From positions 1 to 64,000 of the IMG/VR virus record IMGVR_UViG_3300050821_005814: DNA of 64,000 nt; one strand, given 5' to 3'. Positions within the stretch are counted from its first letter, which is position 1. Every line of letters begins with the position of its first letter. The notes beneath the pieces are model-generated. The model was not told the DNA's origin and ran no database searches. It worked only from the letters and a program-made list of their open reading frames with translations. Of the stretch, positions 5,496-62,884 are shown one piece after another. The position numbers were made by a program, and so were the translations under genes. This DNA comes from a virus.

Positions 5496-7034
5496 TCAGC
5501 GATTGACCTGGATACCCACATTGGCAAAGTGGATAGCGCCAGCAAGCTTGCATGCCACCTGGATGGGGACAGACTTCCGTGCCTCGCGATCAGCCTGCGC
5601 TTGCGAGGCAATAGGCGGGGCGTAGACGTAGAACCCAGCAGTAAGCGTGTCGCCAGTCTGCAAGGAACCAAACTGCAGTGCGCTCGTCCAGACGCCAGGT
5701 GCTACAAGCCCATTGTTGACAGCAGCGTTCATCGACGCTGCGATGTTCGTCACGATCTGCTGGTTACCAGCATCTGTCTGCGGAATCTTCGTTGGCGTCT
5801 GGTAGAAGAGATTCCACAGATTGGTCTGTACAAAATTCTGCAGCCAGTCGAGGCCGGTCACCTCATCGAAGAAGTAGCCATTACACATGACGCCCTGCTG
5901 AATGATCGAAGCGCCATTCTGGTAGGTCGCGTAGACGTTGCAGTTCTTCTGGTTGAGCGACGCAGCCTGCGACTCCGTGAGTACCTCTGGGATGACGCCC
6001 GGCTCCTGCTTGAACTTCATGGTGAGCGTACTGTTCTGCGCGGAGTAGTTCACCGTGAAGTCGCGACCGTAGAACGACGCAACGGCGTAGGGCGAGGTTG
6101 ACGAGTACTGAATAAAGCTTCGGAAGTAGCCAAGCGACTCCATCACGGACGCAAGGTCTGTGTTGATATTGCTCAGCAGGATGTTGCTCTCGTTGCTCGT
6201 GATGCCATAGATGTGGCTTGTGCCAAGCGCCTGAATCATCCCCCCGACTGCTTCATGCGATGCATCCGAGATATCCGTGATGTTGATCGGCGCGAACATG
6301 AAGCCATACACGGACTGGTTACCCAACGTCGACCCAAGCAACACATTCGCTGCTGTCAATGGTGTTTCAGCAGCGATGCCAGCGATCGGTGGGACAGCAC
6401 CAGACGCAGCGGTACCACCGATGAGGGCGGAGATGTCTGTGCCGCTCCCTGCTGTTGACAGGAAGCTCATGGTCGATGACGTGCCGGTTGTGCCAGACGT
6501 CATCACGAAGCGCGTATTGCTGTCTGGCGCATACACGCATGTCGTACCAGCAAGCGCAGCATTCAGCGCTGCCTGAATGATCGACGCTGCGCCGTTGAGA
6601 TTGGTGATGCCGGTAAAGTTCAACCCGGAGATCGTATGCAGCGACCCATTGATCGAGATGTTGAAGCTGCCAGTCGAGATCGCCTGCAGCGATGCAAGCA
6701 ATGCCACTTGTTGCGATGCAGACAGCAAAGCGCACTCAAGGATACCTGCTGTCGCCTGCTGCGCCCAACGCCCAATATAGAGGATGGCTGGCTGCGGGTT
6801 CTGCTCGAAGAACAACTGCGCTGCCTGATACTCTGGCGTTGTGCTGCCAAAGTCAGCTTGCACCCCGCTGAACTGCGAGTACTGCCTGATACGCTGACTG
6901 ACATCGATCACAGGCGAGGGGCCACCGATCAGCAACGCGCCGAAGTTACGCGTTCCCGTTGCAGTCGGCGAGATCGTGACGGCGACATTGATGACGTCTG
7001 AAACTGCCAAGCCGGACCCAGTGGTACCGCTCAT
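5496..7034 (-). CDS. Tail sheath protein (DUF3383-like)
   Basis: A 512-residue protein matching the DUF3383 sheath pattern: VINVAVTISPTATGTRNFGA at the start, the AQLFFEQNPQPAILYIGRW segment near residue 70-90, MKFKQEPGVIPEVLTESQA near the middle and a C-terminal AREARK-like helix (QADREARKSVPIQVACKLAG). The contractile sheath surrounds the tube and drives injection. It is the clearest evidence for a contractile tail. ATG 7034 has GAGGAAT upstream. Neighbours are the neck terminator upstream and tube downstream. Confidence 0.9.
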   Translation of the reverse strand: MSGTTGSGLAVSDVINVAVTISPTATGTRNFGALLIGGPSPVIDVSQRIRQYSQFSGVQADFGSTTPEYQAAQLFFEQNPQPAILYIGRWAQQATAGILECALLSASQQVALLASLQAISTGSFNISINGSLHTISGLNFTGITNLNGAASIIQAALNAALAGTTCVYAPDSNTRFVMTSGTTGTSSTMSFLSTAGSGTDISALIGGTAASGAVPPIAGIAAETPLTAANVLLGSTLGNQSVYGFMFAPINITDISDASHEAVGGMIQALGTSHIYGITSNESNILLSNINTDLASVMESLGYFRSFIQYSSTSPYAVASFYGRDFTVNYSAQNSTLTMKFKQEPGVIPEVLTESQAASLNQKNCNVYATYQNGASIIQQGVMCNGYFFDEVTGLDWLQNFVQTNLWNLFYQTPTKIPQTDAGNQQIVTNIAASMNAAVNNGLVAPGVWTSALQFGSLQTGDTLTAGFYVYAPPIASQAQADREARKSVPIQVACKLAGAIHFANVGIQVNR

Positions 7035-7069
7035 AGTACATTCCTCACAAGCTAAATGTGGTAGTCGAA

Positions 7070-7798
7070 CTAAACGCCGAAGCCAGGCTTACCTGTCTCA
7101 TCGGTTCCAGGGCGCCCTGAGTCGTCAATAGCCGGCACAAAGAGCGGCGGCGTTGGCGAGGGAGGTGCGCCAATCACAGGCACATCGAAAGGCTCTGCTG
7201 CGGGAGGCGTCTGGTCTGTGTTTAGCGTCCCTACCACATCGACCAGATACTCAATCGGGTAGGTCGTGATGATCTCGCGTGTCAGGTTGATCTCCAAGTC
7301 GACGCGTGAGATCCATTGCAGGTTAACGGCTTCGGGGACTGCACGAATGGTGCCGATGCCGCGCAGCTTGACGCCCTGCTTGTACAGGGGGTCAAGGTTT
7401 TGCTTGATCTGCAGGCTGCGGCGCAGGAGCGATGCATTGCCGCGCGCATGCGGACCATAGAACGATGCGAGCAAGCCGATTTCTTCATAGACCGCTTGGT
7501 TGAGCGAGCCAATCCCTTGCGGCGTTGCTAGCTCATACTCATAATCCCAACCATCCTGCGCTTGCGTCACAATGCCGATCGCGCACCAGTCGGTGCTGGG
7601 CGAAGGTTGCGTTGGCGGTAGGTTGGGATCGTTTGTCGGCGCTTGCCAACGCGGACGGACAAGCGATGGGGGAAGCGTCAATATGCCAGCGACGACGGAC
7701 TGAATGAGGTCAGCGAACGCGTCATCGTCAATGACAAGGTTTTGCGCTGGGAGAAGCGGCCCGCCAGTAGCAGATGTGTTGGAGTTCGTCTCGCTCAC
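7070..7798 (-). CDS. Neck/tail terminator protein, gp12-like
   Basis: A 242-residue protein just before the sheath gene. The core, residues about 20-190, contains LIQSVVAGILTLPPSLVRPRW, a conserved WCAIGIV segment and TREIITTYPIEYLVDVVGTL. This is like the neck terminator family of DUF3383-type myophages that caps the tail at the neck. The C-terminus is a proline-rich, probably disordered tail. The start is a GTG at 7798, shortly after the stop of the upstream gene. Confidence 0.65.
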   Translation of the reverse strand: MSETNSNTSATGGPLLPAQNLVIDDDAFADLIQSVVAGILTLPPSLVRPRWQAPTNDPNLPPTQPSPSTDWCAIGIVTQAQDGWDYEYELATPQGIGSLNQAVYEEIGLLASFYGPHARGNASLLRRSLQIKQNLDPLYKQGVKLRGIGTIRAVPEAVNLQWISRVDLEINLTREIITTYPIEYLVDVVGTLNTDQTPPAAEPFDVPVIGAPPSPTPPLFVPAIDDSGRPGTDETGKPGFGV

Positions 7799-7802
7799 TT
7801 AG

Positions 7803-8126
7803 TTAAGTCTGCACGTGTATTGTATGCGATCCATGCTGCTGCCCATGCTTACGTGCAGCATGAGTCGCTTCCTTGAAGGATCCGCTATGGAATGTCGTTT
7901 GCCCGTGTAGAGCACCCCCCTCATGCTTGAATGCCCAATTGCCTCTGCCGCGCGGCGCTTTACCATGCGTGAAACTATAATTGTTCTGCCCTCTAACCTC
8001 AGGCATCTTACGCTGACCCTTCTTCATGCCCGGCACGCCATAATCATGCGCTACGCGCTGGATAGCATCGGTTGCGGATGCGCCAAGCTTGCGCTGTGTT
8101 GCAAGTGCATCCAATGTCCTACTCAT
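7803..8126 (-). CDS. Small protein with GVPGMKKGQ motif, copy A
   Basis: A 107-residue basic protein, start ATG 8126 overlapping the upstream stop by eight bases. Its first 40 residues (SRTLDALATQRKLGAS, TDAIQRVAHDYGVPGMKKGQ) are nearly identical to those of the gene at 8541..8930, while the rest differs. The H-x-YGVPGMKKG segment resembles the short HHGVKGMKWG-type peptide found in many phage structural proteins. The C-terminal half is rich in His and Gly. It lies among head-tail joining genes, so a minor structural role is possible but not shown. Confidence 0.7.
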   Translation of the reverse strand: MSRTLDALATQRKLGASATDAIQRVAHDYGVPGMKKGQRKMPEVRGQNNYSFTHGKAPRGRGNWAFKHEGGALHGQTTFHSGSFKEATHAARKHGQQHGSHTIHVQT

Positions 8127-8541
8127 CGCAATCATCCTCTGCTTCATCGCCATCACTATCTTCGGGCTGCGACTGGTCGGTCAGGTCATGTAGCGTGCAG
8201 GTCGCGTTGATAAACCCCCTGCCCCATTGCGACCAGGGTTGCACATTCGACACGACATACCGCCGTCCTTCCCACAGCACTGTGTCCGCAGCACGCACAC
8301 CATCGTTGATGCGCAGCGGGTAGCGCGTGTAGATTGTCAGCGCACCTTCAACGCGAACGGAGTCTGGCAATAGCTGCAAGCCGCGTGGCGTTGCTGGCTG
8401 CACAGAACCGTGCGTCTTAATCGTTTTGTTCGTGAACGTCGCGCGACCATTGCTCCCAACTATCTCAATTGCCTGGACGACGCGGAACTCCATGTCGAAG
8501 TCGACGTCATCGACGATATCGCTGAGATCAATGGTCGCCAT
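8119..8541 (-). CDS. Head-tail adaptor or joining protein candidate
   Basis: A 140-residue protein flanked by the two GMKKG paralogues and situated between the tail completion protein and the neck terminator. Beta-rich segments such as VRVEGALTIYTRYPLRINDG, VLWEGRRYVVSNVQPW and a late Trp/Thr-rich strand fit a small head-tail connector, though I know no diagnostic motif. The tail is very acidic (residues about 125-140). The ATG shares one base with the upstream TAA. Confidence 0.5.
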   Translation of the reverse strand: MATIDLSDIVDDVDFDMEFRVVQAIEIVGSNGRATFTNKTIKTHGSVQPATPRGLQLLPDSVRVEGALTIYTRYPLRINDGVRAADTVLWEGRRYVVSNVQPWSQWGRGFINATCTLHDLTDQSQPEDSDGDEAEDDCDE

Positions 8542-8930
8542 TAACGCGCATTCCCCCGCCCGCGCCCAGTACCAGCTGTGCGCGAAGCTGAAACAAAGGC
8601 GGGCGTATGCATACCAATGCCCCGAATCTTACCCTTCTTTGTCACAGTTGCTGACGACTGACCCGATGGATGCAGATAGCTCGAACTCCCGCGGTTCGTT
8701 CCCTCAAACTTCCAACCTTCCTTCTCGAACTTGTTATGAATCTCCGAGTGGATAGGCTGTGAACGCGCATGAACGCGACTCTGAAAGTTAGCCTCATTAG
8801 ACCCACGTTTATGCTGACCCTTCTTCATACCAGGCACGCCATAATCATGCGCTACGCGCTGGATGGCGTCAGTTGACGACGCGCCCATACGACGCTGCGT
8901 CGCGATTGCGTCCAGTGTTCTACTTGCCAT
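8541..8930 (-). CDS. Small protein with GVPGMKKGQ motif, copy B
   Basis: A 129-residue basic protein whose first 40 residues are nearly the same as those of the gene at 7803..8126. It also ends in an Arg/Gly-rich tail (TAGTGRGRGNAR). ATG 8930 was preferred to the upstream in-frame start at 8939 because it aligns with the paralogue. The start overlaps the upstream gene by eleven bases. Function unknown. Duplication around the adaptor gene suggests two related minor virion components. Confidence 0.65.
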   Translation of the reverse strand: MASRTLDAIATQRRMGASSTDAIQRVAHDYGVPGMKKGQHKRGSNEANFQSRVHARSQPIHSEIHNKFEKEGWKFEGTNRGSSSYLHPSGQSSATVTKKGKIRGIGMHTPAFVSASRTAGTGRGRGNAR

Positions 8931-33076: not shown

Positions 33077-34156
33077 TCAGATGCCGTCCGCGTACTGCAT
33101 CGTCTCAGGGTACACGAGCTCGATGACGCCCAAGCGGCCCCAGTACTCAACGACCTGATGAAGGCCGCGGAACTGAATGGGGGTACGCTGTAGCGGCACG
33201 AGCGGATAGCGCACACGGTCCTTGTCCTTCGTGTACGCGACCATGCGGTTGGTACCGCCAGCCCCTAGGCCCGGCAGCCATTTGACTGGCTGAATGTCCA
33301 GCTCGCGCCCATAAGAAGAGTTGGTGATGCTGTTCTTCTTGATGTACTCGATGATGGAGATATTGCCGGCGTTCGACACCTTCTGCGACGACAAGGTGCT
33401 GAAGTGGATCGGCGGCAGTCGCAGGTGCGTGGGGATCAACGCATATCCAGCGTTCGTCCAAGCCTGCGTCAACAGGAAGTTTACGTCGGCGACGATTTCG
33501 TCTGGCGACTTTGTGATCACACCAGTCGCTGTCACCCACGTCGTTACGCCTTGTGTGCCAAGCGGCACGTTGTAGGGCGTCACGAGCGCGCTGTTGAACA
33601 TGCCCGTCTTGTTGTAGTCGGTATCACCGACATACACCATCTGGTCGATGTCCATCTGGTACTTGAGCTTCATGCCCGCGTACTTCTGCTGATCAACCGG
33701 ACGACCGGTCTTCTCAGCCGACTGCAGTTCGGGCAACGTCCACTTCAGTTCGGTGCCCCACAGCAGCAGCGGGTTGACGACCTTGCCGATGTCCAGCGAG
33801 ATGCCGGAGATCGCAGTCGACTCCTTGCCGATCCAGTTCTTACCGGCCGGGTTGATACCACCAGGCGCGGCGAAGGTCGAGATCGTGTAGGACGAAAACT
33901 CGTCCGCTGCTGTCACGTCTTCCCGCAGATCGATGTCACGACCCCAGGAGACCTGAACGAGGGGCTCATGCAGAGTCTGGTCGAGCCGCTCAAGTTCGCC
34001 GATGAGAAACGCACCCGTACTGTCGATCGTCATCTGGGTGGCTGCATCGTAAGTCATCATCTGGTCCTTCGTGAACTGTCGCACACGAGGACGGATGATT
34101 GCTGGGCGTGAAAGCATGGTCGTATCCGCATACTCAATGCGGCGGAGATTGCTCAT
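33077..34156 (-). CDS. Major capsid protein (DUF2184-like)
   Basis: A 359-residue protein with the layout of the DUF2184 capsid family: an N-arm, then HEPLVQVSWGRDIDLREDV, GGINPAGKNWIGKESTAISG, LPELQSAEKTGRPVDQQKYA, then QMDIDQMVYVGDTDYNKTG, and a C-terminal TPIQFRGLHQVVEYWGRLGV. It forms the icosahedral shell. It follows the decoration protein and the protease-scaffold gene, a standard head order. ATG 34156 has a GAGAGGT site. Expected to be among the most abundant virion proteins. Confidence 0.9.
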   Translation of the reverse strand: MSNLRRIEYADTTMLSRPAIIRPRVRQFTKDQMMTYDAATQMTIDSTGAFLIGELERLDQTLHEPLVQVSWGRDIDLREDVTAADEFSSYTISTFAAPGGINPAGKNWIGKESTAISGISLDIGKVVNPLLLWGTELKWTLPELQSAEKTGRPVDQQKYAGMKLKYQMDIDQMVYVGDTDYNKTGMFNSALVTPYNVPLGTQGVTTWVTATGVITKSPDEIVADVNFLLTQAWTNAGYALIPTHLRLPPIHFSTLSSQKVSNAGNISIIEYIKKNSITNSSYGRELDIQPVKWLPGLGAGGTNRMVAYTKDKDRVRYPLVPLQRTPIQFRGLHQVVEYWGRLGVIELVYPETMQYADGI

Positions 34157-34217: not shown

Positions 34218-34745
34218 TTACGGGATACGACCGTTGAAGCTGATCTCCGTGAAGCCGCTTGCATCAGCCGGCCCCATGAAGGTGCAGCCATCGACTGCGA
34301 AACCACTGCCGCCAGGGTTCGCAGCCTCCCAACCGCCGGTGATATGCGTACCAGACGGCGCAGCGGTCCAGACATAGACCTGACCGCCTTTCACGGCGGC
34401 TGTCGACCCTGACAGCAGCACGCTGATGTACCCCTCGCGCAGAATGTCGCAGGGACCCTGCAAGCCAGGCGGCGACCCACCACCGAAGCCATCCTGCGGC
34501 CATGCCGACGACTGCGTCGGATAGGGACGCGCAAGAATGCCATAGACATGCGTGTCAGCAGCCTGCAGCGTGCGCATGTTGCCGACATTGCCTGCCGTCG
34601 CGTCGACAACCATTGGTACGCCATAGCCCGTCGGCGCACCAGTCGTACCTGCTGGCGTGATGACCTGCGCCTCAATCGTCGCAGCCCAAACGCGATTCAC
34701 TTCGCCAACGATGCCCGCTGGCATGCGAGTCAAAAATGCAGTCAT
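34218..34745 (-). CDS. Head decoration/cement protein candidate
   Basis: A 175-residue protein between the protease-scaffold and capsid genes, where DUF2184-type phages carry a cement or decoration protein. It is beta-rich with GYGVPMVVDATAGNVGNMRT, VYGILARPYPTQSSAW and ILREGYISVLLSG, resembling capsid cement proteins such as gp24/gp53 types. There is no signal peptide. The assignment combines position and pattern and is moderately secure. Confidence 0.65.
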   Translation of the reverse strand: MTAFLTRMPAGIVGEVNRVWAATIEAQVITPAGTTGAPTGYGVPMVVDATAGNVGNMRTLQAADTHVYGILARPYPTQSSAWPQDGFGGGSPPGLQGPCDILREGYISVLLSGSTAAVKGGQVYVWTAAPSGTHITGGWEAANPGGSGFAVDGCTFMGPADASGFTEISFNGRIP

Positions 34746-34795: not shown

Positions 34796-36400
34796 TCAGG
34801 CGGTGCCGTATGCCTTTCTGTTCATCTCGTTGATGGATGCGACAGTCTTGGCAGCAGTGTCAGCAGTACGACCGCCGCCGAACGTGTGCGCTGAGTTCTG
34901 CATGCCAGCCATCGTTGACGCTGCATTGAATGCGATCGAAATCGCGTCACACGTCCATGCAGTGTCATTGAACGCCGGACGGCGCGTGCCGATGACATCC
35001 TTGACGACCTGCTGCGTCTTCTCCGCCTTGTAGGCAGCATCGAGCACGCGACGCTTGAAGCTGCACATTGCGTCGAATGTCTTGTTGGCAGCCGCGTCCG
35101 CAACAAACGTCGGGAACGTCATGCCTGGCACAAGCTTCTCCGCTTTGGAGACCATGTCATCGAATGGTGCGCGCAGGTTGGTCGAATCACCGACCGCTGC
35201 CCGGCGACGGCGATCGCTTGTACCGCTTGCACGCGGCAAGCTTGGTATATGGCGACCATAGGCTTCGCTGACATCGATCTCGGTCCAACCTTCGGAGTCT
35301 TCCGCCTCCTCCTTGTTGCGCTCACGCCGACGACCGGACTCTTCTTCGCCCTCGAGCTCGCTCTCCGACTCGTCACGCATGCGCGCATCGCGGCTGCGAC
35401 GGTCACGCGTGCGCCGACTGCGATCACGCGTACGCCGGCGATCGCCCATCTCTTCGCGATCGCCGTCCTCGTCATCGTCGTCGTCGGGTTCCGCCCCTTC
35501 CTCCTGCGCGAGCATCGTCAGGATCTTCTCGATCGCATCGAGACGCTGCAAGACATTCGCCATGGGGTCACCGCCAGCAGCAGCGCCGCCTGCGGCAGCA
35601 CCGCCACCTTCCTCGGCATCGTCAGCAGGACGCTCAACAGCACCCCCGCCATTATGCAGGTGCACGTGAACCCCGCCCCCGCTCTCGCCGCCCATCATCT
35701 CATCCGAGATGATCTCACCAAGCATCTCAGGGTCGTGCTCAGCCTCTGTCACGGCAGCGAGGGCGTCGACAACGCTACCCCGCTTGACAGCCCTGCGAAA
35801 CCGATCCATGAAACGCGCACGCTGAACAGACTTTGGAAGTGCCATAGCTTGATCTCCAATTGCACAATGAGGACCGCACCGCCCCCTGTCGACGAGTGCG
35901 ACGTGGTTGCCGACAATGTTGAGGCAGCGTGCGCGGCCGGGCCCAAGCTGCTCATACTCTGCGTCGTATCCGGCCGAAATCTCCTTCTTGCCTGAGTTGA
36001 TTGCCTCAATCGCCTTCTTGTTGGTGACCAGGATGTCACCGAACATGAAGTCGTTGTCATACTGCAGCCCATCGCCACGACGGGGATTGAGGATGGTCCC
36101 CATTTGATAGTCGTGGCAGTTGTCGGGCGTCAGCATACCAATGGGAGGGTGGTCGTCAACGAACGGTTTCCCATTGTAGCTCGCAAGCGTCTGAGGCGCG
36201 AACACCTCCTCCGCATCGCGTTCGACTATAATCAGCCCATCCTTCCCAGCCTCGACTGCCGGGAGTTCATTTGCTGCATAGACTTGTGTGCCAATGCGCG
36301 CGATTGGCACATCCGTGATCAGCAAGAACCCCTCAGGCGTCAGAGCCCTATGGTCGGAGAGCGTCGAGGTTACATAGAACCTCTGCGTTGGCCCTGCCAT
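34796..36400 (-). CDS. Prohead protease (DUF2213-like) fused to scaffold region
   Basis: A 534-residue protein. Residues 1-180 match DUF2213 prohead proteases: VDDHPPIGMLTPDN (His84), GKKEISAGYDAEYE (Ser142) and IVGNHVALVDRGRCG (His166) are the candidate catalytic residues. Residues about 220-400 are highly charged and probably disordered, with a run of Asp/Glu then Arg/Asp repeats, as in a scaffold. The C-terminal 110 residues form a helical domain. The protease would mature the capsid and digest the scaffold. ATG 36400 follows the preceding stop by one base. Confidence 0.8.
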   Translation of the reverse strand: MAGPTQRFYVTSTLSDHRALTPEGFLLITDVPIARIGTQVYAANELPAVEAGKDGLIIVERDAEEVFAPQTLASYNGKPFVDDHPPIGMLTPDNCHDYQMGTILNPRRGDGLQYDNDFMFGDILVTNKKAIEAINSGKKEISAGYDAEYEQLGPGRARCLNIVGNHVALVDRGRCGPHCAIGDQAMALPKSVQRARFMDRFRRAVKRGSVVDALAAVTEAEHDPEMLGEIISDEMMGGESGGGVHVHLHNGGGAVERPADDAEEGGGAAAGGAAAGGDPMANVLQRLDAIEKILTMLAQEEGAEPDDDDDEDGDREEMGDRRRTRDRSRRTRDRRSRDARMRDESESELEGEEESGRRRERNKEEAEDSEGWTEIDVSEAYGRHIPSLPRASGTSDRRRRAAVGDSTNLRAPFDDMVSKAEKLVPGMTFPTFVADAAANKTFDAMCSFKRRVLDAAYKAEKTQQVVKDVIGTRRPAFNDTAWTCDAISIAFNAASTMAGMQNSAHTFGGGRTADTAAKTVASINEMNRKAYGTA

Positions 36401-38332: not shown

Positions 38333-38571
38333 CACACACCCTTGTGAAAGTGAATGTGTATGCCGCGCTTTGGCTTGAGCTTTTTGACTGCAGGCGCAGC
38401 AGTCGCTGCTTCATCATCATCAGCAGCAAGCGGATCAAAGCCAAGCAACGCGACTACATCGTCTGGCGTCTTCGCTAGCGGCTCATCATCATCCGAACTG
38501 TCATCTTCGGACGGCATCACCTGCTGCTCGCTGATTGCGCCAACATGCACGTCAGGTAGGTCGTCAGACAT
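38332..38571 (-). CDS. Small acidic protein with His-rich C-terminus
   Basis: A 79-residue protein. The middle is strongly acidic (EDDSSDDDEPLAKTPDDVVA, ADDDEAAT) and the end is basic and His-rich (KKLKPKRGIHIHFHKGV). The start overlaps the topoisomerase stop by eight bases; an ATG two codons earlier is also possible. The strand-like IHIHFH tail resembles VHVHLHNGG in the neighbouring protease-scaffold protein. Function unknown. Confidence 0.6.
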   Translation of the reverse strand: MSDDLPDVHVGAISEQQVMPSEDDSSDDDEPLAKTPDDVVALLGFDPLAADDDEAATAAPAVKKLKPKRGIHIHFHKGV

Positions 38572-39535
38572 TTGCATTGCCCCACGGCGCAAACACGACA
38601 GGCGAGATGTAGCTTTGCAGCGCGACGGTTGGCGTGTTGCCAAGCTTCGCTGCGACGACTTTCGCTACCTGCATGACAGCCTTCTTGTAGCCCGTCGCAT
38701 TTGCAGGCGGTGCGACCTTCGTGACTTCCTTCATCGCAGTCTTGGTGCCAACGAGTGTGCGAAAGTCTTTCGTCTTGAACCCGCCGCCGAATGAGTGCAC
38801 GTAGTCGAGCAAGCTCTTCTGATTGACGTTACCAAACAGGCGGCCGTTGTTTCCCGCTGCCTGCTTACGCTCGCGCAGCATCTTGCTGAGCGATGGGTCT
38901 TCAACTGGTAGGTCCAACGCAACGCCCTTCTTACCAACAAACTTGAGCGACACCTTATTACCCATGACGACTACATGCTGCCCCTCAAGTGTCGTCGCAC
39001 CATATGCCTTCACCTTCGCCTGCGTGTCCGTGTCCGACCCAGGACGCACGCCCATATCCATGATGAGCGCTGTAACATCGCCCAATGCACGATGCGTCGG
39101 GTTGCTGGACTTACGCATCTTCTCATTCTGCAAGCGAATGGTAGACAGCTTCGCGTCAAGTGTCTTGATGCGTGCGAACTTAGCAGCCGCCTGCTTCGCT
39201 GCATGCGACTCGGAGTAGACGTATTGCGTGCGTCCCGCCGCATCCTTGCCCGTCACCTGCAACGGCGCCTGGGGGTCTTCACTATAGGTGACATCCTTCC
39301 ATGCGGGAGGGATGCGTAGCTTGGCTATGTGCGCTGGCAGCTCACCGCCACCCTTCGCCTTGAAGCCGTTGGGGGTCTTCTCCGCTGACGTGTGCCCGCT
39401 AGCACCGCCGCCTTTGGGTGCAAACTCGCCAGCGTTCTCCGGTTGACCCCGCGGATGCTGCGACGACTCCCATGAGACGTCGACAACATGCACAAGCGAT
39501 CCCTTACTATCTAGCCAGAGGTGCACGCTAGGCAT
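38564..39535 (-). CDS. Type IB DNA topoisomerase-like protein
   Basis: A 323-residue protein. Residues about 60-315 follow poxvirus/bacterial topoisomerase IB: LRIPPAWKDV (74-82), GKDAAGRTQYVYS, KFARI, MGVRPGSDT (Arg164), LKFVGKKGV (Lys202), KDFRTLVGT (Arg259), LGNTP (Asn300) and SYISPVV with Tyr309 as the nucleophile. All catalytic positions appear filled. The first 55 residues are extra: VHLWLDSKG, then HPRGQPENAGEFAPKGGG, a linker type seen in phage head polyproteins. It may relax packaged or injected DNA. The ATG overlaps the MuF stop by eight bases. Confidence 0.85.
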   Translation of the reverse strand: MPSVHLWLDSKGSLVHVVDVSWESSQHPRGQPENAGEFAPKGGGASGHTSAEKTPNGFKAKGGGELPAHIAKLRIPPAWKDVTYSEDPQAPLQVTGKDAAGRTQYVYSESHAAKQAAAKFARIKTLDAKLSTIRLQNEKMRKSSNPTHRALGDVTALIMDMGVRPGSDTDTQAKVKAYGATTLEGQHVVVMGNKVSLKFVGKKGVALDLPVEDPSLSKMLRERKQAAGNNGRLFGNVNQKSLLDYVHSFGGGFKTKDFRTLVGTKTAMKEVTKVAPPANATGYKKAVMQVAKVVAAKLGNTPTVALQSYISPVVFAPWGNANV

Positions 39536-40322
39536 TTGGAATGACAGGCTCCGGATAGCAGCGACAGTTGTAGATAGCACCGGGATGCGCGCGTTCGCCG
39601 TTGCTACCAGCGATTGGCGGGGCATCCCAGCGATGAAACGTACCCTCAAGCTTCTTATGCAGCGGACGCACATTCCAGTCGTGGGCCGTACGCCAGATAT
39701 ATCCCTCAGACCCGATCTGCTTAGCGCGCGCTTGCGTGAGCGTTGTCGCAGCGCGAGTCGTTTCAGTGCGCGCTATCGTGTCAGCGCGCGACTTAGCAAC
39801 CTCACCCGACAACATGATCTGCTTTGCAAGTACTTCTGCCCGCTGACCGCTATAGAGCTGACCCGTCGCAATGGCTTGCACACGCTTCGCTGCTTCAAGG
39901 GGCAGCGATGTGATCAAGTCAACCTGCTCATCAAGCAACTGCCGCATGATCTCGCCAGTCGGCGTTTCAGCGAGCTCCTTGCGCAGCTCAAGCCCCATGA
40001 AGCGCGCGTACTGCGCCCATGCTTTCTCATCGCGACGTGACACGTCAGCAAGTAGTGACGCGGATATCGCGCGCGCCCAGGGACGCAGGATGACGGAATA
40101 CCGATCAAGCAAACGCGTCAATGTGTCCAGGTCATGCGGACTACCGCTCGCCATACCCTTGACGAGATCGCCTATGTGCTTTGCAACGCTGCGTAACTGC
40201 ACCGTGAACTTAACCTCAGCATTGCGTACTCTAGCAAATGCCTCGCGCTCCTTGCGCGTATCCCGCCGCGCGTCACCCACTCTAGCTGCGGGCAACGACA
40301 ACGGCGGGAGAGCATCAGGCAT
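39528..40322 (-). CDS. MuF-like head morphogenesis protein
   Basis: A 264-residue protein of the SPP1 gp7/Mu F type. The N-terminal two thirds are helical. The C-terminal domain has the hallmarks ADTIARTETTRAATTLTQAR, IWRTAHDWNVRPLHKKLEGT and the ending HPGAIYNCRCYPEP. These proteins bind the portal and affect DNA delivery. It lies two small genes downstream of the portal, the normal order, and directly before the topoisomerase gene with an eight-base overlap. Confidence 0.88.
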   Translation of the reverse strand: MPDALPPLSLPAARVGDARRDTRKEREAFARVRNAEVKFTVQLRSVAKHIGDLVKGMASGSPHDLDTLTRLLDRYSVILRPWARAISASLLADVSRRDEKAWAQYARFMGLELRKELAETPTGEIMRQLLDEQVDLITSLPLEAAKRVQAIATGQLYSGQRAEVLAKQIMLSGEVAKSRADTIARTETTRAATTLTQARAKQIGSEGYIWRTAHDWNVRPLHKKLEGTFHRWDAPPIAGSNGERAHPGAIYNCRCYPEPVIPNA

Positions 40323-41040: not shown

Positions 41041-43098
41041 CTACTTCACGGCGCGAACTGGCGGCTCACCTCGCCCATAGCGATGGTTGTCAAGCCATCC
41101 CTTGAGCGCTGCGACAGTCATCTGGCGAATAGTGCCGATGCGGTCTGATCCCCGACCATCAGAGAACGCTGCTTTGTATGCAGTCAGCGCTTGCTCGCGC
41201 GACGAGAAGCGCAGCATGCACTTGTGCTCATCGAACACACCGCTATCTGGGTTCAATTGCTCGATCACCCAACACTGCTCCTGCTTCTCGTCGTCGCCGA
41301 TGAAGCAATCCATTTGCTCGCGAGGACCTTCAGCCGATGATGTGCCACTAATATACCCATAATGCGCAGGCATCACTGTCGACCAGCCATACCCTTTGCG
41401 CGCCTCGCCTTTCGGCGTCTCGATGATGCATGTCAGCGGCCCGACATCGACCATGCTGAGCGCATCCATCTGCCGCGCGCGAATGATGTGGCGCAGGAGT
41501 AGCGCATTGCCTGACAACGGGATGCCTTGATCGTCTGTGTCGTCGGGTTTCTCGCTTTCAGCCTGCGGTCCCTCGAGCAGCGGTTCTGTGTTCTCACCAG
41601 CAGCGGGGGTCTGGGTGCTTTCAGGCATCGCGGGAGCAGCGCCGCTCATGCCTGGACCTCCCTGCATTGGCATCCCTGTCTGCGGATCGACCTCTGGCTG
41701 TCCAGGCAGAGGCGCTAATGCGTCGGCCTGTTCCGCCATGTCGAGATCTTCGTCCGTGATGTTGCTGCCAAACCCTGTGATGCGCGAGGACTGGCGAATC
41801 TCCATCATAGCGGTCTTCAGCGTGAAGACGCGATCCTGCAGTAGATTGCTCGTCGCACCTGCGATCGTGCCGGCGATCTGCGACTTCTCGAGCTCAGTCA
41901 ACTGCCATAGCGGCGCAAACTTGTAGTTGAACCCATCTGGCAGCGGTTCACCAAAATGCGACTGATGCGTGATGTGGAATAGGCGTGTGACAAACCGCCG
42001 CAAGCGCGCTTCCTGTTGGCTGCGCGTACCATCATAGTAATTGCGCAGGTCGCTATCGCCAGTCGAGTTCAGTCCTGCAGGCGACTGCGCGAACAAGCGC
42101 GTCATGGGAATGTCAGCGGCACCCGCGACCTGCTGCCCGAATTGCAGCATCATGTCGGACAGCCCAGCAAACGTGTATGACTGCGACTCAAAGTCGTCGG
42201 CTTTGTCAAGGACCGTCATGCCCTCAATCGACTGCATGACACGTATGAGCTGCATGAACTGCTTGACAGCATCCGCCATCTTGCCGCCAGCAGCGATGAT
42301 CTCCCGCAGGTTCTCAATCTTGAGTACGCGTAGGTGCGCTTTGTAGATGAGCTGCGCAGCGCCTTGCGTTGACGAGTCGAATGCGATCATGCGATCGAAC
42401 ACCGGCTCGATCACCGACGCACCCCAACCATTCTCAGTGATCAACTGCCAGTAGGGCAGCTCAATGCCATCCAAGCGTATGCAACGCGAATGGTGAATCT
42501 TCATATTGGGGATTGACCGCGCATCAGCGACCGTGTCATAGAACTTTGGCATACCAAAGTCAGGCCCGAAGTCAGTCACGGGGTTTTCGATATGCGGCCA
42601 TACCATCCAGCGATCGAGGACGAGTATTCCCTTGAACTGATTTTTGCTGACAGTCTCAACGCGCAAGGGGGTTGAGATGTCCTGCCCCTCAATCATGATG
42701 ACGCCAAGCGCACCGCCATACAGGCGCGACCACTTGAGCACACTATTGAGCCGCGACCAAATCTGCAAGTCGTTCCAATACTGGTTCAGCGAGTCAATGC
42801 GGTCGGGCGGCATGTCCGACTCAATGTTGACCCCTTCCCGCGTCATGTCGTCAGCGACTACGTCAACGACCTTGCGCACGAGCCATGCGCCACGATACAT
42901 CCACTCGAGTAGCGTATGGTTGCGGCTGAGCGGATTAAACCCATAGGTCGACGCGGACGAAAGGTTGTTCGTGCCATACCCAAGGTTAGCAGCAAAGTTC
43001 TGGAAGCTGTCTGCTGTACGCACACGCGCGATGGAGTCGCTCGTGTATGCCTGCACGCGCACGCGCGGCTTGATAGGTGCGATAGGCGCGTCACTCAC
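41041..43098 (-). CDS. Portal protein (DUF1073-like) fused to inorganic pyrophosphatase-like domain
   Basis: A 685-residue protein from GTG 43098, which overlaps the previous stop (GTGA). Residues about 1-470 are a DUF1073 portal: YGFNPLSRNHTLLEWMYRGA, VVDDVADDMTRE-type helix, IPMTRLFAQSPAGLNSTGDS and RNYYDGTRSQQEARLRRFV. A Pro/Gly/Gln-rich linker (about 475-535) leads to a C-terminal domain at about 555-670: VMPAHYGYISGT, MDCFIGDD, SGVFDEHKCMLRF and IRQMTVAALKGWL. This matches the pyrophosphatase-like domain seen in phage head polyproteins. The portal is the packaging and ejection vertex. The enzyme's role is unknown. Confidence 0.88.
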   Translation of the reverse strand: MSDAPIAPIKPRVRVQAYTSDSIARVRTADSFQNFAANLGYGTNNLSSASTYGFNPLSRNHTLLEWMYRGAWLVRKVVDVVADDMTREGVNIESDMPPDRIDSLNQYWNDLQIWSRLNSVLKWSRLYGGALGVIMIEGQDISTPLRVETVSKNQFKGILVLDRWMVWPHIENPVTDFGPDFGMPKFYDTVADARSIPNMKIHHSRCIRLDGIELPYWQLITENGWGASVIEPVFDRMIAFDSSTQGAAQLIYKAHLRVLKIENLREIIAAGGKMADAVKQFMQLIRVMQSIEGMTVLDKADDFESQSYTFAGLSDMMLQFGQQVAGAADIPMTRLFAQSPAGLNSTGDSDLRNYYDGTRSQQEARLRRFVTRLFHITHQSHFGEPLPDGFNYKFAPLWQLTELEKSQIAGTIAGATSNLLQDRVFTLKTAMMEIRQSSRITGFGSNITDEDLDMAEQADALAPLPGQPEVDPQTGMPMQGGPGMSGAAPAMPESTQTPAAGENTEPLLEGPQAESEKPDDTDDQGIPLSGNALLLRHIIRARQMDALSMVDVGPLTCIIETPKGEARKGYGWSTVMPAHYGYISGTSSAEGPREQMDCFIGDDEKQEQCWVIEQLNPDSGVFDEHKCMLRFSSREQALTAYKAAFSDGRGSDRIGTIRQMTVAALKGWLDNHRYGRGEPPVRAVK

Positions 43099-43394
43099 TT
43101 GCTTGACATCTCCTGCTGCTGCTGACGTAGTAATGCCAGCGCTTGGCTCAGCTTGCTGCTGCACTCGTCAAGGCGGTCGGCAGTCAGCGCACGCACATCC
43201 TCGTTCTTGTTAGCGTACTCAATGATGGAGTCGAAGGTCCGGGGTTGTTTAGGCTTCACGATAGCAGCGGGATGCGGCGCGCACCCCTGCTCGAGATCTG
43301 CAGGAAGGTGCATGTAAGGCGCAGTCGTTGCTTGCTGCGGCGCATGCGTGCAGCAGCTAAACATCATCAACAGGCTTGCAGGAACCAGACGCAA
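43095..43394 (-). CDS. Putative lipoprotein, possible outer-membrane spanin
   Basis: A 99-residue protein from a TTG start. The N-terminus (MRLVPASLLMMFSCC) is a short hydrophobic signal ending in an S-C step compatible with lipid attachment. The rest contains Pro-rich and charged segments and a C-terminal coiled coil (ECSSKLSQALALLRQQQQEM). Directly upstream lies a membrane-anchored coiled-coil protein, so the pair could be a two-component spanin. The lipobox is not canonical and no endolysin lies next to it. Confidence 0.5.
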   Translation of the reverse strand: MRLVPASLLMMFSCCTHAPQQATTAPYMHLPADLEQGCAPHPAAIVKPKQPRTFDSIIEYANKNEDVRALTADRLDECSSKLSQALALLRQQQQEMSSK

Positions 43395-45652: not shown

Positions 45653-45795
45653 AACCGGTACCGGACATAGCTCATCCGCCGCCCCAGCCGATACTCATTC
45701 CATTGCTGATGCCAGAGCGCACTTGCTTCCTGCGATGTCGTGATGCAGATCTCCCACCTGCCATCGCGGAACATGTAGACTGTATAGCGTATCAT
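45649..45795 (-). CDS. Short basic protein after large terminase
   Basis: A 48-residue reading frame, MIRYTVYMFRDGRWEICITT then QEASALWHQQWNEYRLGRRM, ending SYVRYRL. It starts at ATG 45795, overlapping the terminase stop by four bases (ATGA), and its own stop overlaps the next start the same way. The continuous chain of overlaps supports a real gene despite its length. It is aromatic and Arg-rich; function unknown. Confidence 0.6.
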   Translation of the reverse strand: MIRYTVYMFRDGRWEICITTSQEASALWHQQWNEYRLGRRMSYVRYRL

Positions 45796-47123
45796 CCTGC
45801 CAATTTCTCCCAAACGCCAAGACCACCACGCTTGGTAATATACCCGTCAAGCGAGTAACCGACCGCATCCCACCCATGGTTGTGCGCGTCGACTACTATC
45901 GGCAGTATCAGCGGCTGCTTTGTGACTGGATCAATACGCTTCTCGTCAGTCTTGTAGGAATAGAGCCTCGCCTCCTGCGCCATACCGACGCAGCGCTCGT
46001 GAATGTGAATCTTGCCAAAGCCCTTCAGGTGCGAGATGCGGTCTTCAACGCACCCCTGCCACTTGAGTGCAGCAGACATGTTGATGCCTTGCCGCAATAC
46101 ATAGCTGATCGTCTCCGGCCGCGCGTTGTCCGCCTTCACCGGCCAGTCAGTGATACCAGGAATGCCCTCGTACTGCATGCCGCTGATTGGTGCGCGGCCG
46201 CCCTTCAGCGCGTAGGGGATGTCTTCCAACTCAACGCCAACGCCGAAGAACTCATGCGTGATCCACAAGTCGTTGTTGTGGATGTAGCTGCGTATGCCGC
46301 ACAGCGGATCGTTCGCAAAGCCAAAGTCGACGCCGTAGAAGTACTTGTCGACGATCTCAGGTTCCTCGAACCCTTCGATCGCATAGCGGTCCTTGAAGAT
46401 AGCTGCTGACGAAATATGCCGGCACATACCCTCCCACACCCAGTCGTACGCGTCTGCGTCTGTCAGCATCATTTGCTTGCGCAGACGATTGAGCGACTCA
46501 GGGAACCATGGATTGTCCTGCCAGCCTACCTTCTCGACGAGTGCGTCTGTCGAATGACCTGTGACAAACGTCGCATACATGTAGTCGTCGGGATCAACGG
46601 CATTGAAGCTGATCCAAATCTCCGGGTTGATACCGCCACGCTCGCCTCTGATCGTTGGGTCGAGGAGCAGCATGGACTCGCGTGATGTCGTCTGCCCTTC
46701 CTCAATCCAGCAAATCGTCACACCTTCAAGCGATCGTATCTCAGCGATGTTACGCTTGAGTCCGCGGAAGATGAACTCACTACCCGTCAGCTTGCATCGT
46801 ATCGTGCGGTCGGTGATCTCGAAGAACGCTGCTAGTCCGAGTGCGCGTATCTGACCTGCAATGACACGATGCACGCTGTCAGCGATACTCGTCTGGAACT
46901 CACGCGTGCAGAGTATCAAATGTTTCTGCACCATCGCACGCCCAATTGCCGCACGTGCAAATGATCGGCTCTTAGCCCCGCCTCGACCGCCCCAGGCGAC
47001 CCGATATCTTACCGCCTCACCCGCGTCGGTCGTGCTCGCGGATAACAGCTTGCGAAAGCGCGGCGGGAAGCGGATGCGAAGAGGACCAGGACCTTCTGAA
47101 TCTGTGAGAGCGTCGAGAGGCAT
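45792..47123 (-). CDS. terL: Terminase large subunit (PBSX/XtmB type)
   Basis: A 443-residue packaging ATPase and nuclease. Walker A is WGGRGGAKS (residues 44-52), Walker B plus catalytic Glu is VTICWIEE (135-142) and the coupling motif is ISFNAVDP (171-178). The nuclease domain has GVDFGFAND (Asp266), VKADNARPETI (Asp332) and DAHNHGWDAVGY (Asp412, Asp419). It pumps DNA into the prohead at the portal and cuts genome-length pieces. The length is typical. It is separated from the small subunit by ten small genes, unlike the usual adjacent arrangement. Confidence 0.95.
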   Translation of the reverse strand: MPLDALTDSEGPGPLRIRFPPRFRKLLSASTTDAGEAVRYRVAWGGRGGAKSRSFARAAIGRAMVQKHLILCTREFQTSIADSVHRVIAGQIRALGLAAFFEITDRTIRCKLTGSEFIFRGLKRNIAEIRSLEGVTICWIEEGQTTSRESMLLLDPTIRGERGGINPEIWISFNAVDPDDYMYATFVTGHSTDALVEKVGWQDNPWFPESLNRLRKQMMLTDADAYDWVWEGMCRHISSAAIFKDRYAIEGFEEPEIVDKYFYGVDFGFANDPLCGIRSYIHNNDLWITHEFFGVGVELEDIPYALKGGRAPISGMQYEGIPGITDWPVKADNARPETISYVLRQGINMSAALKWQGCVEDRISHLKGFGKIHIHERCVGMAQEARLYSYKTDEKRIDPVTKQPLILPIVVDAHNHGWDAVGYSLDGYITKRGGLGVWEKLAG

Positions 47124-58276: not shown

Positions 58277-59041
58277 ATGGCTGAAATGATCACCTCGAAT
58301 CGCGCTGGCCCCCTCGCTAAGCGCGTATTGCTCTACTCAGGCGGCATGGATAGCGTCTGCTTTGACAACCTGCTCTTGCCTGACGTTTGCCTGTATGTGC
58401 GCAACAAAGCGCCCTATGCTGCATGCGAAGACTACTGCGTCGAGAAACTCGAGGCGCAGGACAAGATCAAAGGTGAGCTTGTGACACTCGATGCCAATGT
58501 GCTCGATCTCTCGCAATGGGAGCGCGATGACGCAATCGTGCCCAACCGCAATGCGCATCTCGTCCTACTCGCAAGCAACTATGGCGACCAGATCTATCTC
58601 AGTTCGGTCTATGGCGATCGATCCAACGACAAGGATGAGAAGTTCTACCGCCTGATGGAAATGCTACTCGGGCATATGTGGGATGAGCAGCATTGGACAA
58701 AGCGCCGGCGCTTCCGTATCTCAAGTCCCTTCAAGATGTGGACGAAATCAACGCTTGTCGACCGCTACTTGTCTCGCGGAGGTGACCACCTTGCGCTGCT
58801 GACATCCTACTCCTGCTACCGCGGGCAACCCAAGCATTGCGGCATCTGCAAGCCTTGCTTCCGCAAACGCGTCGCGCTCGAGAACAACTATATCGAAGTG
58901 CCGCGGGGTTACTTCGAGGATGACTTCTGGCGCCAAGACTGGTTTCATGAACTGCTGCCGCGCATGCAGGAAGGCAAGTATCGAGGCGATGAGGACAAGG
59001 ATGTACTCAAGTTCCTGCGGCTAAGGAATTTGCTTGCATAG
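58277..59041 (+). CDS. queC: QueC-like 7-cyano-7-deazaguanine (preQ0) synthase
   Basis: A 254-residue ATP pyrophosphatase. The PP-loop is LLYSGGMDSVC (Ser21-Ser26), followed by VPNRNAHLVLLASNYG and a C-terminal zinc site: Cys180, and CGICKPC (Cys188, Cys191, Cys194). QueC converts carboxy-deazaguanine to preQ0 using ATP and ammonia. The only three-base gap to the upstream gene suggests coupled expression. With FolE and DpdA downstream, the product would serve DNA modification. Host enzymes would supply the missing QueD and QueE steps if they are not elsewhere in the phage. Confidence 0.85.
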   Translation: MAEMITSNRAGPLAKRVLLYSGGMDSVCFDNLLLPDVCLYVRNKAPYAACEDYCVEKLEAQDKIKGELVTLDANVLDLSQWERDDAIVPNRNAHLVLLASNYGDQIYLSSVYGDRSNDKDEKFYRLMEMLLGHMWDEQHWTKRRRFRISSPFKMWTKSTLVDRYLSRGGDHLALLTSYSCYRGQPKHCGICKPCFRKRVALENNYIEVPRGYFEDDFWRQDWFHELLPRMQEGKYRGDEDKDVLKFLRLRNLLA

Positions 59042-60549: not shown

Positions 60550-61176
60550 ATGTCAATGCACCCCGATGACTTCGCGCTCCCGCTTGAGCGCTCGCTTGAG
60601 CGCCCTTCCAAGTTTGACGCGCTAGCCGCTATGCGCACCATACTGCGTTACATAGGCGAAGACCCCTTGCGACCAGGCTTGCTTGAAACGCCAGACCGCG
60701 TGTTGCGCGCATGGGAACGCGAATGGGGGCGCGGGTATCGTGAAGACCCCAGCAAGTTTGCCCGGCTGTTCGAGGAAGAGCAGCCCTTCTATGACTCCAT
60801 GGTCATCGTGCGACACATTCGTGTGCGCAGCATGTGCGAGCACCACATGGCACCATTCATCGGCTACGCGCATGTCGGCTACCTGCCGAAAGACGCGCGA
60901 CATGTCGTTGGCATCTCGAAGCTTGCGCGCATCGTTGATCACTTCTCCCGCCGCTTGCAGGTGCAGGAACGCCTGACCTACGAGATCGTAGACTTCATCA
61001 TGGACAAGATCACCGATCTCGGGGCTGGCGTCATCATATGTGCCAAGCATACCTGCATGTGTACGCGTGGCGTGAATGAGGCGGAGGCTGAGACCGTTAC
61101 GTCAGCGCTGAAGGGGGCATTCTTTGACAACCCTGAAACGCGGTCCGAGTTCCTGCGCTTAGCGCATCCTAAATAG
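60550..61176 (+). CDS. folE: GTP cyclohydrolase I
   Basis: A 208-residue enzyme converting GTP to dihydroneopterin triphosphate, the first step of folate and of 7-deazaguanine synthesis. It has the folE signatures: ETPDRVLRAW, RVRSMCEHHMAPFIGYAHVG (Cys96, His99), then GISKLARIVDHFSRRLQVQE and KHTCMCTRG (Cys169), which complete the zinc site. Its length is typical for the core enzyme. AGGA precedes ATG 60550. In this setting it most likely feeds preQ0 synthesis for DNA modification. Confidence 0.92.
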   Translation: MSMHPDDFALPLERSLERPSKFDALAAMRTILRYIGEDPLRPGLLETPDRVLRAWEREWGRGYREDPSKFARLFEEEQPFYDSMVIVRHIRVRSMCEHHMAPFIGYAHVGYLPKDARHVVGISKLARIVDHFSRRLQVQERLTYEIVDFIMDKITDLGAGVIICAKHTCMCTRGVNEAEAETVTSALKGAFFDNPETRSEFLRLAHPK

Positions 61177-61185
61177 GAGAGCACT

Positions 61186-61830
61186 ATGAGTAAGCTTGTA
61201 ATCTCCATTGACGACAACATCATCTTCAAGCTGTTTCAGCAATCGAGCCTGATGCCTCCATGCATGTTGAAGATCGGTTGGTTGCAGGTGCTTGCTGCGA
61301 CCGCTGCGACGACGTTCGCTGGCCACATGCTGGATGTCAAGCTGTTCGATACGCCAGACAAGGTCTATAAGATTGTCAGCGATTTGACGCACCACTTTGA
61401 ACCCGCCTTTCTGTCTGTGCATGCGGCAGGAGGGCGCGAGATGCTCAATGCTGCATATGCCGCGGCGGCGGGGACGAACACGGAGCTGTTCGCAGTTGGC
61501 GTAATGACAACCGATCATGCAGCAAGAGGGATTGAGGAACTATCGCGCAATGTCGAGCTTGCTACGATGGCGCTGGAGACAGGTATCAACTATCTAAGTT
61601 GCAGTATGGATTCTGTGCATTTCCTGAAGACGATGTTCCCGGCGCTCAAGCTAATCGTGCCCGGCATCCGCATGGGCAACAGCGACCTTCGTATGGTCAA
61701 GGACCATGCGCGCGTGCACGAACCGACAGACCGACGTGTCGACTACTACGTCGTCGGGCGACCTATCACGCAATCGGCAGCACCCTTTGTGGAGGCGAAG
61801 CGTTACTTCGATGTGATCGATGCCCTCTAA
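61186..61830 (+). CDS. Orotidine-5'-phosphate decarboxylase-like protein
   Basis: A 214-residue protein of the OMP decarboxylase/KGPDC superfamily. The signature D-x-K-x-x-D is complete (LDVKLFD, Asp50, Lys52, Asp55), with Asp9 (SIDDN), Lys29 (LKIGW), VPGIRMG and VVGRPIT (Gly191, Arg192) as substrate and phosphate loops. OMP decarboxylase makes UMP. It is encoded nine bases after folE and overlaps dpdA by eleven bases, tying it to the base-modification genes. It may supply pyrimidines or act on a modified nucleotide. AGGAG precedes ATG 61186. Confidence 0.8.
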   Translation: MSKLVISIDDNIIFKLFQQSSLMPPCMLKIGWLQVLAATAATTFAGHMLDVKLFDTPDKVYKIVSDLTHHFEPAFLSVHAAGGREMLNAAYAAAAGTNTELFAVGVMTTDHAARGIEELSRNVELATMALETGINYLSCSMDSVHFLKTMFPALKLIVPGIRMGNSDLRMVKDHARVHEPTDRRVDYYVVGRPITQSAAPFVEAKRYFDVIDAL

Positions 61831-62884
61831 GCGCAAGGCGGGCACGCCGAAAGTCTGCATGCTCATAGATAGCGGCGCCTACTCAGCGTGGCGATTGAAG
61901 AAGCCAGTCAACCTCGATCAGTACTGCGACTTCTTGAAAGCCAATCTCGACTGGATCAACGGCTATGTCAACATGGATGTCATCATCCCGGAAGACCCTG
62001 AGAAGGCAGCAGCAGCAGGCTTCGAGAACTTTAAGTGCATGCGGCGCAAGGGACTCAATCCCATCCCTGTTGTGCACGCAGGCGAGGACATCAAGTGGAC
62101 CTATCGCTATCTCGATGCGAAGTGTGACTACCTGGGGATTTCCTCATCCATGTTAGGGCATCGTCCAGGCGGCATGGCGGACGACTGGTATGCGGAGGTC
62201 TGGTCGCATCTCGTTGACAGTCAGGGTAATCCCATCGTCAAGACGCATGCGTTCGGCGAGGGGCGGCAGGAAGCTATGCAGCGCTTCCCCTGGTACTCCG
62301 CTGACAGCGCGAGCTGGATTTATGCGTCGCAGCGCAGCGGACGTGTCAAGCTTATTGGCGGGCGTGATGTGCAGTTCCGTGCTGACGGTCTGCATACCGA
62401 ACGCGAACCCGACATCCTATCACTCGCCAAACATGATCACGGCGAGTTTAGCCGCATACTGGCAGACGAAGGGATTGACTGGGAAAGCTTCAAGGAGCGT
62501 TCAGGTCGCCCCGCCTACACCATTCGCACCTATTTGACCTGCAAGTACTTCCTTTGGTTGGAGAAGTACATACGCGGCATGCAGCCGATTGCTTTCCATC
62601 CGACATCCTTGTTTGGGCGCCCAAAGGTGAAGCTGCCGGGCATTCGGCTTAACGCATTCAACCTGCATCTCGTGCTTGGCGGCAATGCGTCAGCGCAAGC
62701 TGTGTTTGCGCATGCAGGCGGGACAAACGCCCTTGTGTCATTCTTTCACATCCTCGAGTTTGCGCACTACGCGACACTTCGCGACTTCGTGTATAATCCT
62801 CTCAAGACCTGTCAAACAGCAGAGCATCTGAAAGGGTACTACGATGTCATCGACAAGCTCGTTAAAGCGCCGGCAGCAGCGTAA
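61820..62884 (+). CDS. dpdA: DpdA-like DNA-guanine transglycosylase
   Basis: A 354-residue protein resembling the phage DpdA branch of tRNA-guanine transglycosylases. It has MLIDSGAYSAWRLKKPVNLD (Asp17), WINGYVNMDVIIPEDP (Asp53), NPIPVVHAGEDIKW, YLGISSSMLGH and the later TRED-like THAFGEGRQEAM to WYSADSASWIYASQRSGRV region. DpdA swaps guanine in DNA for preQ0 or a derivative, which protects phage DNA from restriction. Asp17 and Asp53 are candidate catalytic residues by analogy. The start overlaps the previous gene by eleven bases. Confidence 0.8.
   Translation: MPSKRKAGTPKVCMLIDSGAYSAWRLKKPVNLDQYCDFLKANLDWINGYVNMDVIIPEDPEKAAAAGFENFKCMRRKGLNPIPVVHAGEDIKWTYRYLDAKCDYLGISSSMLGHRPGGMADDWYAEVWSHLVDSQGNPIVKTHAFGEGRQEAMQRFPWYSADSASWIYASQRSGRVKLIGGRDVQFRADGLHTEREPDILSLAKHDHGEFSRILADEGIDWESFKERSGRPAYTIRTYLTCKYFLWLEKYIRGMQPIAFHPTSLFGRPKVKLPGIRLNAFNLHLVLGGNASAQAVFAHAGGTNALVSFFHILEFAHYATLRDFVYNPLKTCQTAEHLKGYYDVIDKLVKAPAAA

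Follow-up and report, generated by a model that had tools for sequence, protein, structure and literature searches.

The window, the 64,000-nucleotide stretch of viral DNA analysed here, is a portion of a 106.8-kb virus record and encodes what appears to be a full, catalytically competent topoisomerase IB (TopIB) of the bacterial/poxvirus type. The enzyme is intact, its active site is conserved, and its gene lies among head genes. Relatives are fused to portal or MuF proteins, and its N-terminal tag recurs in other head-region proteins. These features suggest that TopIB is packaged in the phage head and probably ejected, which would add a new kind of cargo to the 'polyvalent' head-effector strategy already known.

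The enzyme and its place in the head operon

The TopIB gene occupies the position given in a preliminary description of this DNA, 38564-39535, and reads on the minus strand from an ATG at 39535 down to 38564 (323 aa). Its claimed coupling to the MuF gene was also borne out: the TopIB start falls within the last codons of MuF, and the MuF stop and TopIB start share the 8 nt ATGCCTAG. A start yielding 369 aa was dropped because it reads through the MuF coding sequence. On the minus strand, TerL, portal-InPase, two small ORFs and MuF precede TopIB, which is followed by small ORFs, the DUF2213 protease, a cement protein and the major capsid protein. The features are as follows.

45792..47123, minus strand: terminase large subunit (TerL)
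41041..43164, minus strand: portal protein with C-terminal InPase domain (Phage_portal_3 1.5e-108, InPase 9.8e-29)
39528..40322, minus strand: MuF-like minor head protein (Phage_Mu_F 1.6e-16; phrog_324)
39528..39535, minus strand: 8 nt shared by the end of MuF (stop) and the beginning of TopIB (start)
38564..39535, minus strand: topoisomerase IB gene, 323 aa (Pfam, phmmer, AlphaFold, Foldseek)
39404..39472, minus strand: tag-linker, aa 22-44, WESSQHPRGQPENAGEFAPKGGG
38621..39331, minus strand: enzyme part, Top1B_N_bact (aa 69-98) and Topoisom_I core (aa 114-305) (Pfam)
39044..39046, minus strand: Arg164 codon, catalytic (alignment to 2f4q and homologues)
38930..38932, minus strand: Lys202 codon, catalytic (alignment to 2f4q and homologues)
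38759..38761, minus strand: Arg259 codon, catalytic (alignment to 2f4q and homologues)
38636..38638, minus strand: codon of Asn300, a residue that is His in poxviruses and Asn in most bacterial relatives
38609..38611, minus strand: Tyr309 codon, expected nucleophile (alignment to 2f4q and homologues)
34796..36400, minus strand: head maturation protease (DUF2213) whose C-terminal part is acidic
34218..34745, minus strand: structural cement/minor capsid protein (PF23982, PF22758)
33077..34156, minus strand: major capsid protein

Like polyvalent head proteins, the window TopIB is encoded among portal, terminase and head genes. It is a solo protein joined to no head protein, and Pfam finds one enzyme domain in it, where polyvalent proteins have at least two per polypeptide. 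The window's own portal (41041-43164) is fused to an inorganic pyrophosphatase domain, and that junction lacks the HPR tag described below.

Pfam scores for the window protein were well above the cut-offs, both for Topoisom_I (85 bits against 23.7) and for Top1B_N_bact (37.6 bits against 27). Searching with phmmer retrieved the Deinococcus radiodurans TopIB structure 2f4q (E=1.5e-31) as well as variola TopIB, and the D. radiodurans and variola enzymes were also the best PDB matches in Foldseek. The AlphaFold model underlying the latter search, built with 41 homologues, has a mean pLDDT of 80, with residues 1-55 below 50. The two-domain fold and the catalytic residues are common to the phage enzyme and its bacterial and poxvirus counterparts (D. 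radiodurans 2f4q, 3m4a; variola 2h7f). Enzymes of this class relax supercoiled DNA via a 3'-phosphotyrosyl intermediate.

The five active-site residues named in the preliminary description, Arg164, Lys202, Arg259, Asn300 and Tyr309, all align with those of 2f4q and make up the Arg-Lys-Arg-His/Asn-Tyr set of bacterial/poxvirus-type TopIB. They are invariant in 46/46 phage sequences (the window TopIB and its 45 IMG/VR homologues), down to ~38% identity. Asn300 was considered as the mark of an odd or damaged enzyme and dismissed, because Asn occupies this site in 36/37 rows from cellular-genome collections; these rows comprise 31 bacterial loci and three phage-like MAG loci, each of the latter counted twice. 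Asn in place of His is thus usual in this bacterial clade, and D. radiodurans and most bacterial TopIB share it with the phage enzyme.

Relatives in other phages

Type IB enzymes had been described beforehand as rare in phages. This holds for isolates, as tblastn against 50,697 phage records gave one weak TopIB match, but not for uncultivated phages, since IMG/VR contained 45 loci with the topoisomerase domain (including the near-copy pairs L014/L016, L027/L028, L030/L031 and L009/L012). The IMG/VR contigs are genome fragments, and some of these loci are incomplete. In the isolated Bacteroides phage BS162P1 (OP172706), a type IB enzyme of 254 aa is annotated as top1E; it shares 31% identity with the window TopIB over 46% of the query. 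This short solo enzyme (L251, 1827-2591) lies outside any annotated head region, and we found neither a tag on it nor an annotated head gene adjoining it. The C-terminal part of PHROG 23460, catalogued without annotation as a family of unknown function, also matches the window TopIB. We found no phage-head type IB topoisomerase in the literature.

TopIB and a head protein form one polypeptide in 18/45 IMG/VR loci. The partner is a Phage_portal_3-type portal in 15 loci, a lambda-type portal in L026, a Mu portal in L041 and MuF in L042. An Elusimicrobia MAG contig (L215) carries a further portal-TopIB fusion. Relatives such as L006, L017, L022, L025, L038 and L039 have the two or more domains per polypeptide of polyvalent proteins. 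The MuF part of the L042 polypeptide (5619-8771) contains an intein splicing domain match below the Pfam cut-off. An AlphaFold prediction of the full portal-TopIB fusion L046 from a single sequence reached a pLDDT of 36 and was set aside. Among the non-fused loci, portal, MuF, protease, capsid or terminase genes adjoin TopIB in 24/27 of the fetched stretches, with L014 counted on the strength of its near-identity to L016; no recognised head gene was present in the stretches fetched around TopIB for L027, L028 and L029. This gene context, together with the portal and MuF fusions, lends good support to the virion or head role suggested in the preliminary description.

In a tree of 74 sequences, phage and bacterial TopIB were separated with a support of 100/100, and the phage enzymes formed one clade. 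The phage enzymes further differ from bacterial and poxvirus TopIB in their disordered, tagged N-terminus and in their location in a head operon or portal fusion. Within the phage clade, TopIB must have switched between fused and solo forms at least 12 times; well-supported branches force 6 to 7 of these changes. The tree thus indicates that phage TopIB has repeatedly joined or left head proteins while retaining its head-region location.

The N-terminal tag and what it joins

The added N-terminus noted earlier, and the stretch HPRGQPENAGEFAPKGGG within it, were both found in the window TopIB. This region, which contains the tag-linker, is predicted to be disordered. The window tag reads WESSQHPR, with its Glu one place off the family consensus WxExxHPR. 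When IMG/VR was searched with the window TopIB, unrelated proteins sharing the tag stretch alone were also returned, and a degenerate DNA pattern for E..HPRD..GKF detected at least 120 stretches in IMG/VR. This pattern-based survey covers a sample of IMG/VR and was made without using TopIB. Among the matches listed, all tag-pattern stretches are in frame, and an aromatic residue, which the pattern did not demand, stands two places ahead of the Glu in 123/125 distinct copies. The 241 copies among the matches listed define the motif [WF]-x-E-x-x-H-P-R-x(n)-G-[KEQ]-F, and half of the ten residues that follow it are Gly or Ser.

The tag regex had 258 matches in tag-bearing ORFs and none after these ORFs were shuffled; as judged by this result and by the 46/46 retention of all five catalytic residues, the conservation is not due to chance. 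Codons at the invariant tag residues were identical in 211/420 comparisons against 189 expected, and hence vary nearly as freely as the codon usage of the ORFs permits. Selection therefore appears to act on the tag peptide, and the idea of a DNA-level recombination repeat is unsupported.

Among the matches listed, the segment before the first tag is a portal in 28/52 cases, representing four Pfam portal families, MuF in 4/52 and DUF2213 in 1/52. The 141 segments after a tag, again among the matches listed, include ART (11), ART-PolyVal (3), Zeta toxin (10), Topoisom_I (5), Nudix (5), DUF2213 (4), and LPD3, RelA/SpoT, GNAT and PI3/4-kinase (3 each); PBECR, SAM lyase, ParB and InPase are less frequent. 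As many as four tags can occur in one protein, set between its modules. The tag is N-terminal in the window TopIB and many solo proteins, and internal in fusions. By sequence, the added stretch belongs to a recurring module, [WF]xExxHPR..G[EKQ]F followed by a Gly/Ser linker, through which many effector domains are connected to a portal, MuF or protease. In L059 (7416-9035) and L061 (3294-8573), tag and effector modules directly follow the DUF2213 protease and replace its usual acidic C-terminal region.

The HPR tag is located directly ahead of the topoisomerase in 27/42 TopIB loci in which the upstream flank is present. Other TopIB leaders carry SRDEEGKWSGGGG, GHEFHGNQWTEGGGG or a GMKWG motif (Pfam DUF7211 in L040), and some relatives have leader motifs of another kind, or none that we recognised. 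The short leaders comprise GMKWG/DUF7211, GHEFHGNQW, GSGN[FY]GH, GSGRHPEG and SRDEEGKW, and non-HPR motifs occur in L040 (6009-8774), L045 (7263-8819), L037, L043, L030, L027 and L033. Perhaps these form a family of alternative head tags.

A cultured-phage case was reached through portal relatives. Burkholderia phage BgManors32 has the gene order portal, MuF, a tagged 177-aa LPD3 protein (UEW68637.1, tag stretch WNESAHPRAANGEF), DUF2213 protease and a presumed capsid gene, so that the tagged LPD3 gene occupies the same slot as the window TopIB. Phage WC36-2 has a relative that bears the tag, and in a Helicobacter prophage the tag and an LPD3-like segment stand at the end of a portal-like ORF. 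These three occurrences, the last of them fused, argue that tag and cargo move as a block for LPD3, as for TopIB. Searches of isolated phages with the bare tag (23-26 aa) gave one chance-level match or none, tblastn being insensitive at that length, and we did not find the motif in papers.

The packaging or cleavage tag suggested in the preliminary description is a reasonable reading of a motif that is widespread at module boundaries. However, neither the capsid protein nor the protease of the window contains the motif, which argues against a general head maturation site. Other copies of the tag were absent from the window and from the three stretches of the virus genome that were read.

A proposed head-packaged enzyme and its alternatives

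We consider it reasonably likely that TopIB is a cargo protein, incorporated into the phage head and delivered along with the DNA. Expressed from the head operon in coupling with MuF, the enzyme would be brought into the head interior by its N-terminal tag, a task that covalent fusion to portal or MuF may serve in relatives. The tag-linker would then separate the enzyme from the part that anchors it in the head. It would probably be recognised while the head assembles, and may serve for docking or targeting or else be a site at which the head protease acts; between docking and processing we see the chances as about even. After ejection, TopIB could relax the incoming phage DNA or alter host DNA topology early in infection. 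Packaging, tag processing, ejection, relaxation activity and the place and time of TopIB action are all inferred here from sequence. Presence of the window TopIB in the virion is the step we regard as highly probable; if it is there, action mainly after ejection seems fairly probable.

One alternative is that TopIB works within the head or at the portal, swivelling DNA during packaging or freeing torsion on exit, and is never meant for the host cell. Portal C-termini generally point into the capsid, and repeated fusions join TopIB to portals of three different families, as such a role would have it. However, ART, Zeta-type kinase, RelA/SpoT and Nudix domains stand behind the same tag and have host-cell rather than capsid substrates, which favours action after injection, and most phages with related portals lack such an enzyme. 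We therefore regard a purely in-head function as unlikely. Still lower is the probability that TopIB is an ordinary late enzyme, absent from the virion, that untangles replicated DNA before packaging, the head operon merely setting its time of expression. The enzyme is without a recognised head domain in the window and in about 24 IMG/VR loci, and a Pfam search of the virus record, which may be a fragment, found no type IA or type IIA topoisomerase. Against this, at least 18 loci encode TopIB and a portal or MuF protein as a single polypeptide, and the enzyme carries the same tag as other head-region effectors. Finally, the tag might be a mere flexible, shuffling-friendly linker without a role in recognition, as its position between many different domains and the Gly/Ser-rich residues behind it would allow. 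This, too, is quite improbable: HPR, GxF, the aromatic residue and Glu are conserved far too strongly (the aromatic in 123/125 copies among the matches listed), the tag also occurs at the extreme N-terminus of solo proteins, and codon choice gives no sign of a DNA-level repeat.

Delivery of TopIB as head cargo has parallels in known systems. Multidomain 'polyvalent' proteins, and enzymes fused to portal or MuF, have been described by Iyer and colleagues as effectors that are packaged in the head and injected (PMC5512222, PMC9503650). These share with the present case the head-gene context, the portal and MuF fusions, and InPase, ART, RelA/SpoT, PBECR and LPD domains, whereas the window TopIB is solo. 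Most companion domains of the tag fit this picture, but TopIB and the shared tag are absent from its searched text; that of PMC5512222 has 'topoisomerase' once, and 'linker' and 'HPR' nowhere. The tag may also be compared with the capsid targeting sequences of phage T4, which offers an experimental precedent: short N-terminal peptides direct Alt and the internal proteins into the prohead and are removed by the head protease (PMC9026906). Its aromatic-x-Glu start loosely recalls the hydrophobic-x-Glu logo of the T4 protease. However, the tag is longer, with HPR and GxF, and often internal between domains, and the protease belongs to a different family. In giant phage SPN3US, a protease removes propeptides from head proteins, one of which is an ejected protein (PMC7411985).

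The finding adds a DNA-topology enzyme to the apparent head cargo of phages, and with a head TopIB the effect of torsion on phage DNA during packaging and entry could be tested directly. If the tag is a targeting or processing signal, sequence alone would suffice to recognise head-packaged proteins in unrelated phages; BgManors32, a cultured phage in which the tag occupies the corresponding gene slot, renders the tag testable now. More tentatively, and with some doubt on our part, [WF]xExxHPR..GxF-(G/S)n could be a general code in phages with unrelated portal families, marking head-packaged enzymes and releasing or docking them, with TopIB as one of the commoner cargoes. Poxvirus topoisomerase IB is packaged in the virion, and under such a code phages would have a counterpart of this virion-borne viral topoisomerase. 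Poxviruses and mimivirus carry the same enzyme type (PMC2621148), but they are unrelated viruses whose enzymes lack such a tag and are delivered differently.

Elsewhere in the virus, QueC-like, FolE, DpdA-like and QueE-like ORFs (window 58277-59041, 60550-61176 and 61820-62884; L254, 671-1501) probably point to 7-deazaguanine DNA modification; the QueC-like match is weak and below cut-off, and the DpdA-like and QueE-like radical-SAM ORFs were called by eye. An orotidine-5'-phosphate decarboxylase-like ORF (61186-61830), below curated cut-offs, lies between FolE and the DpdA-like gene.
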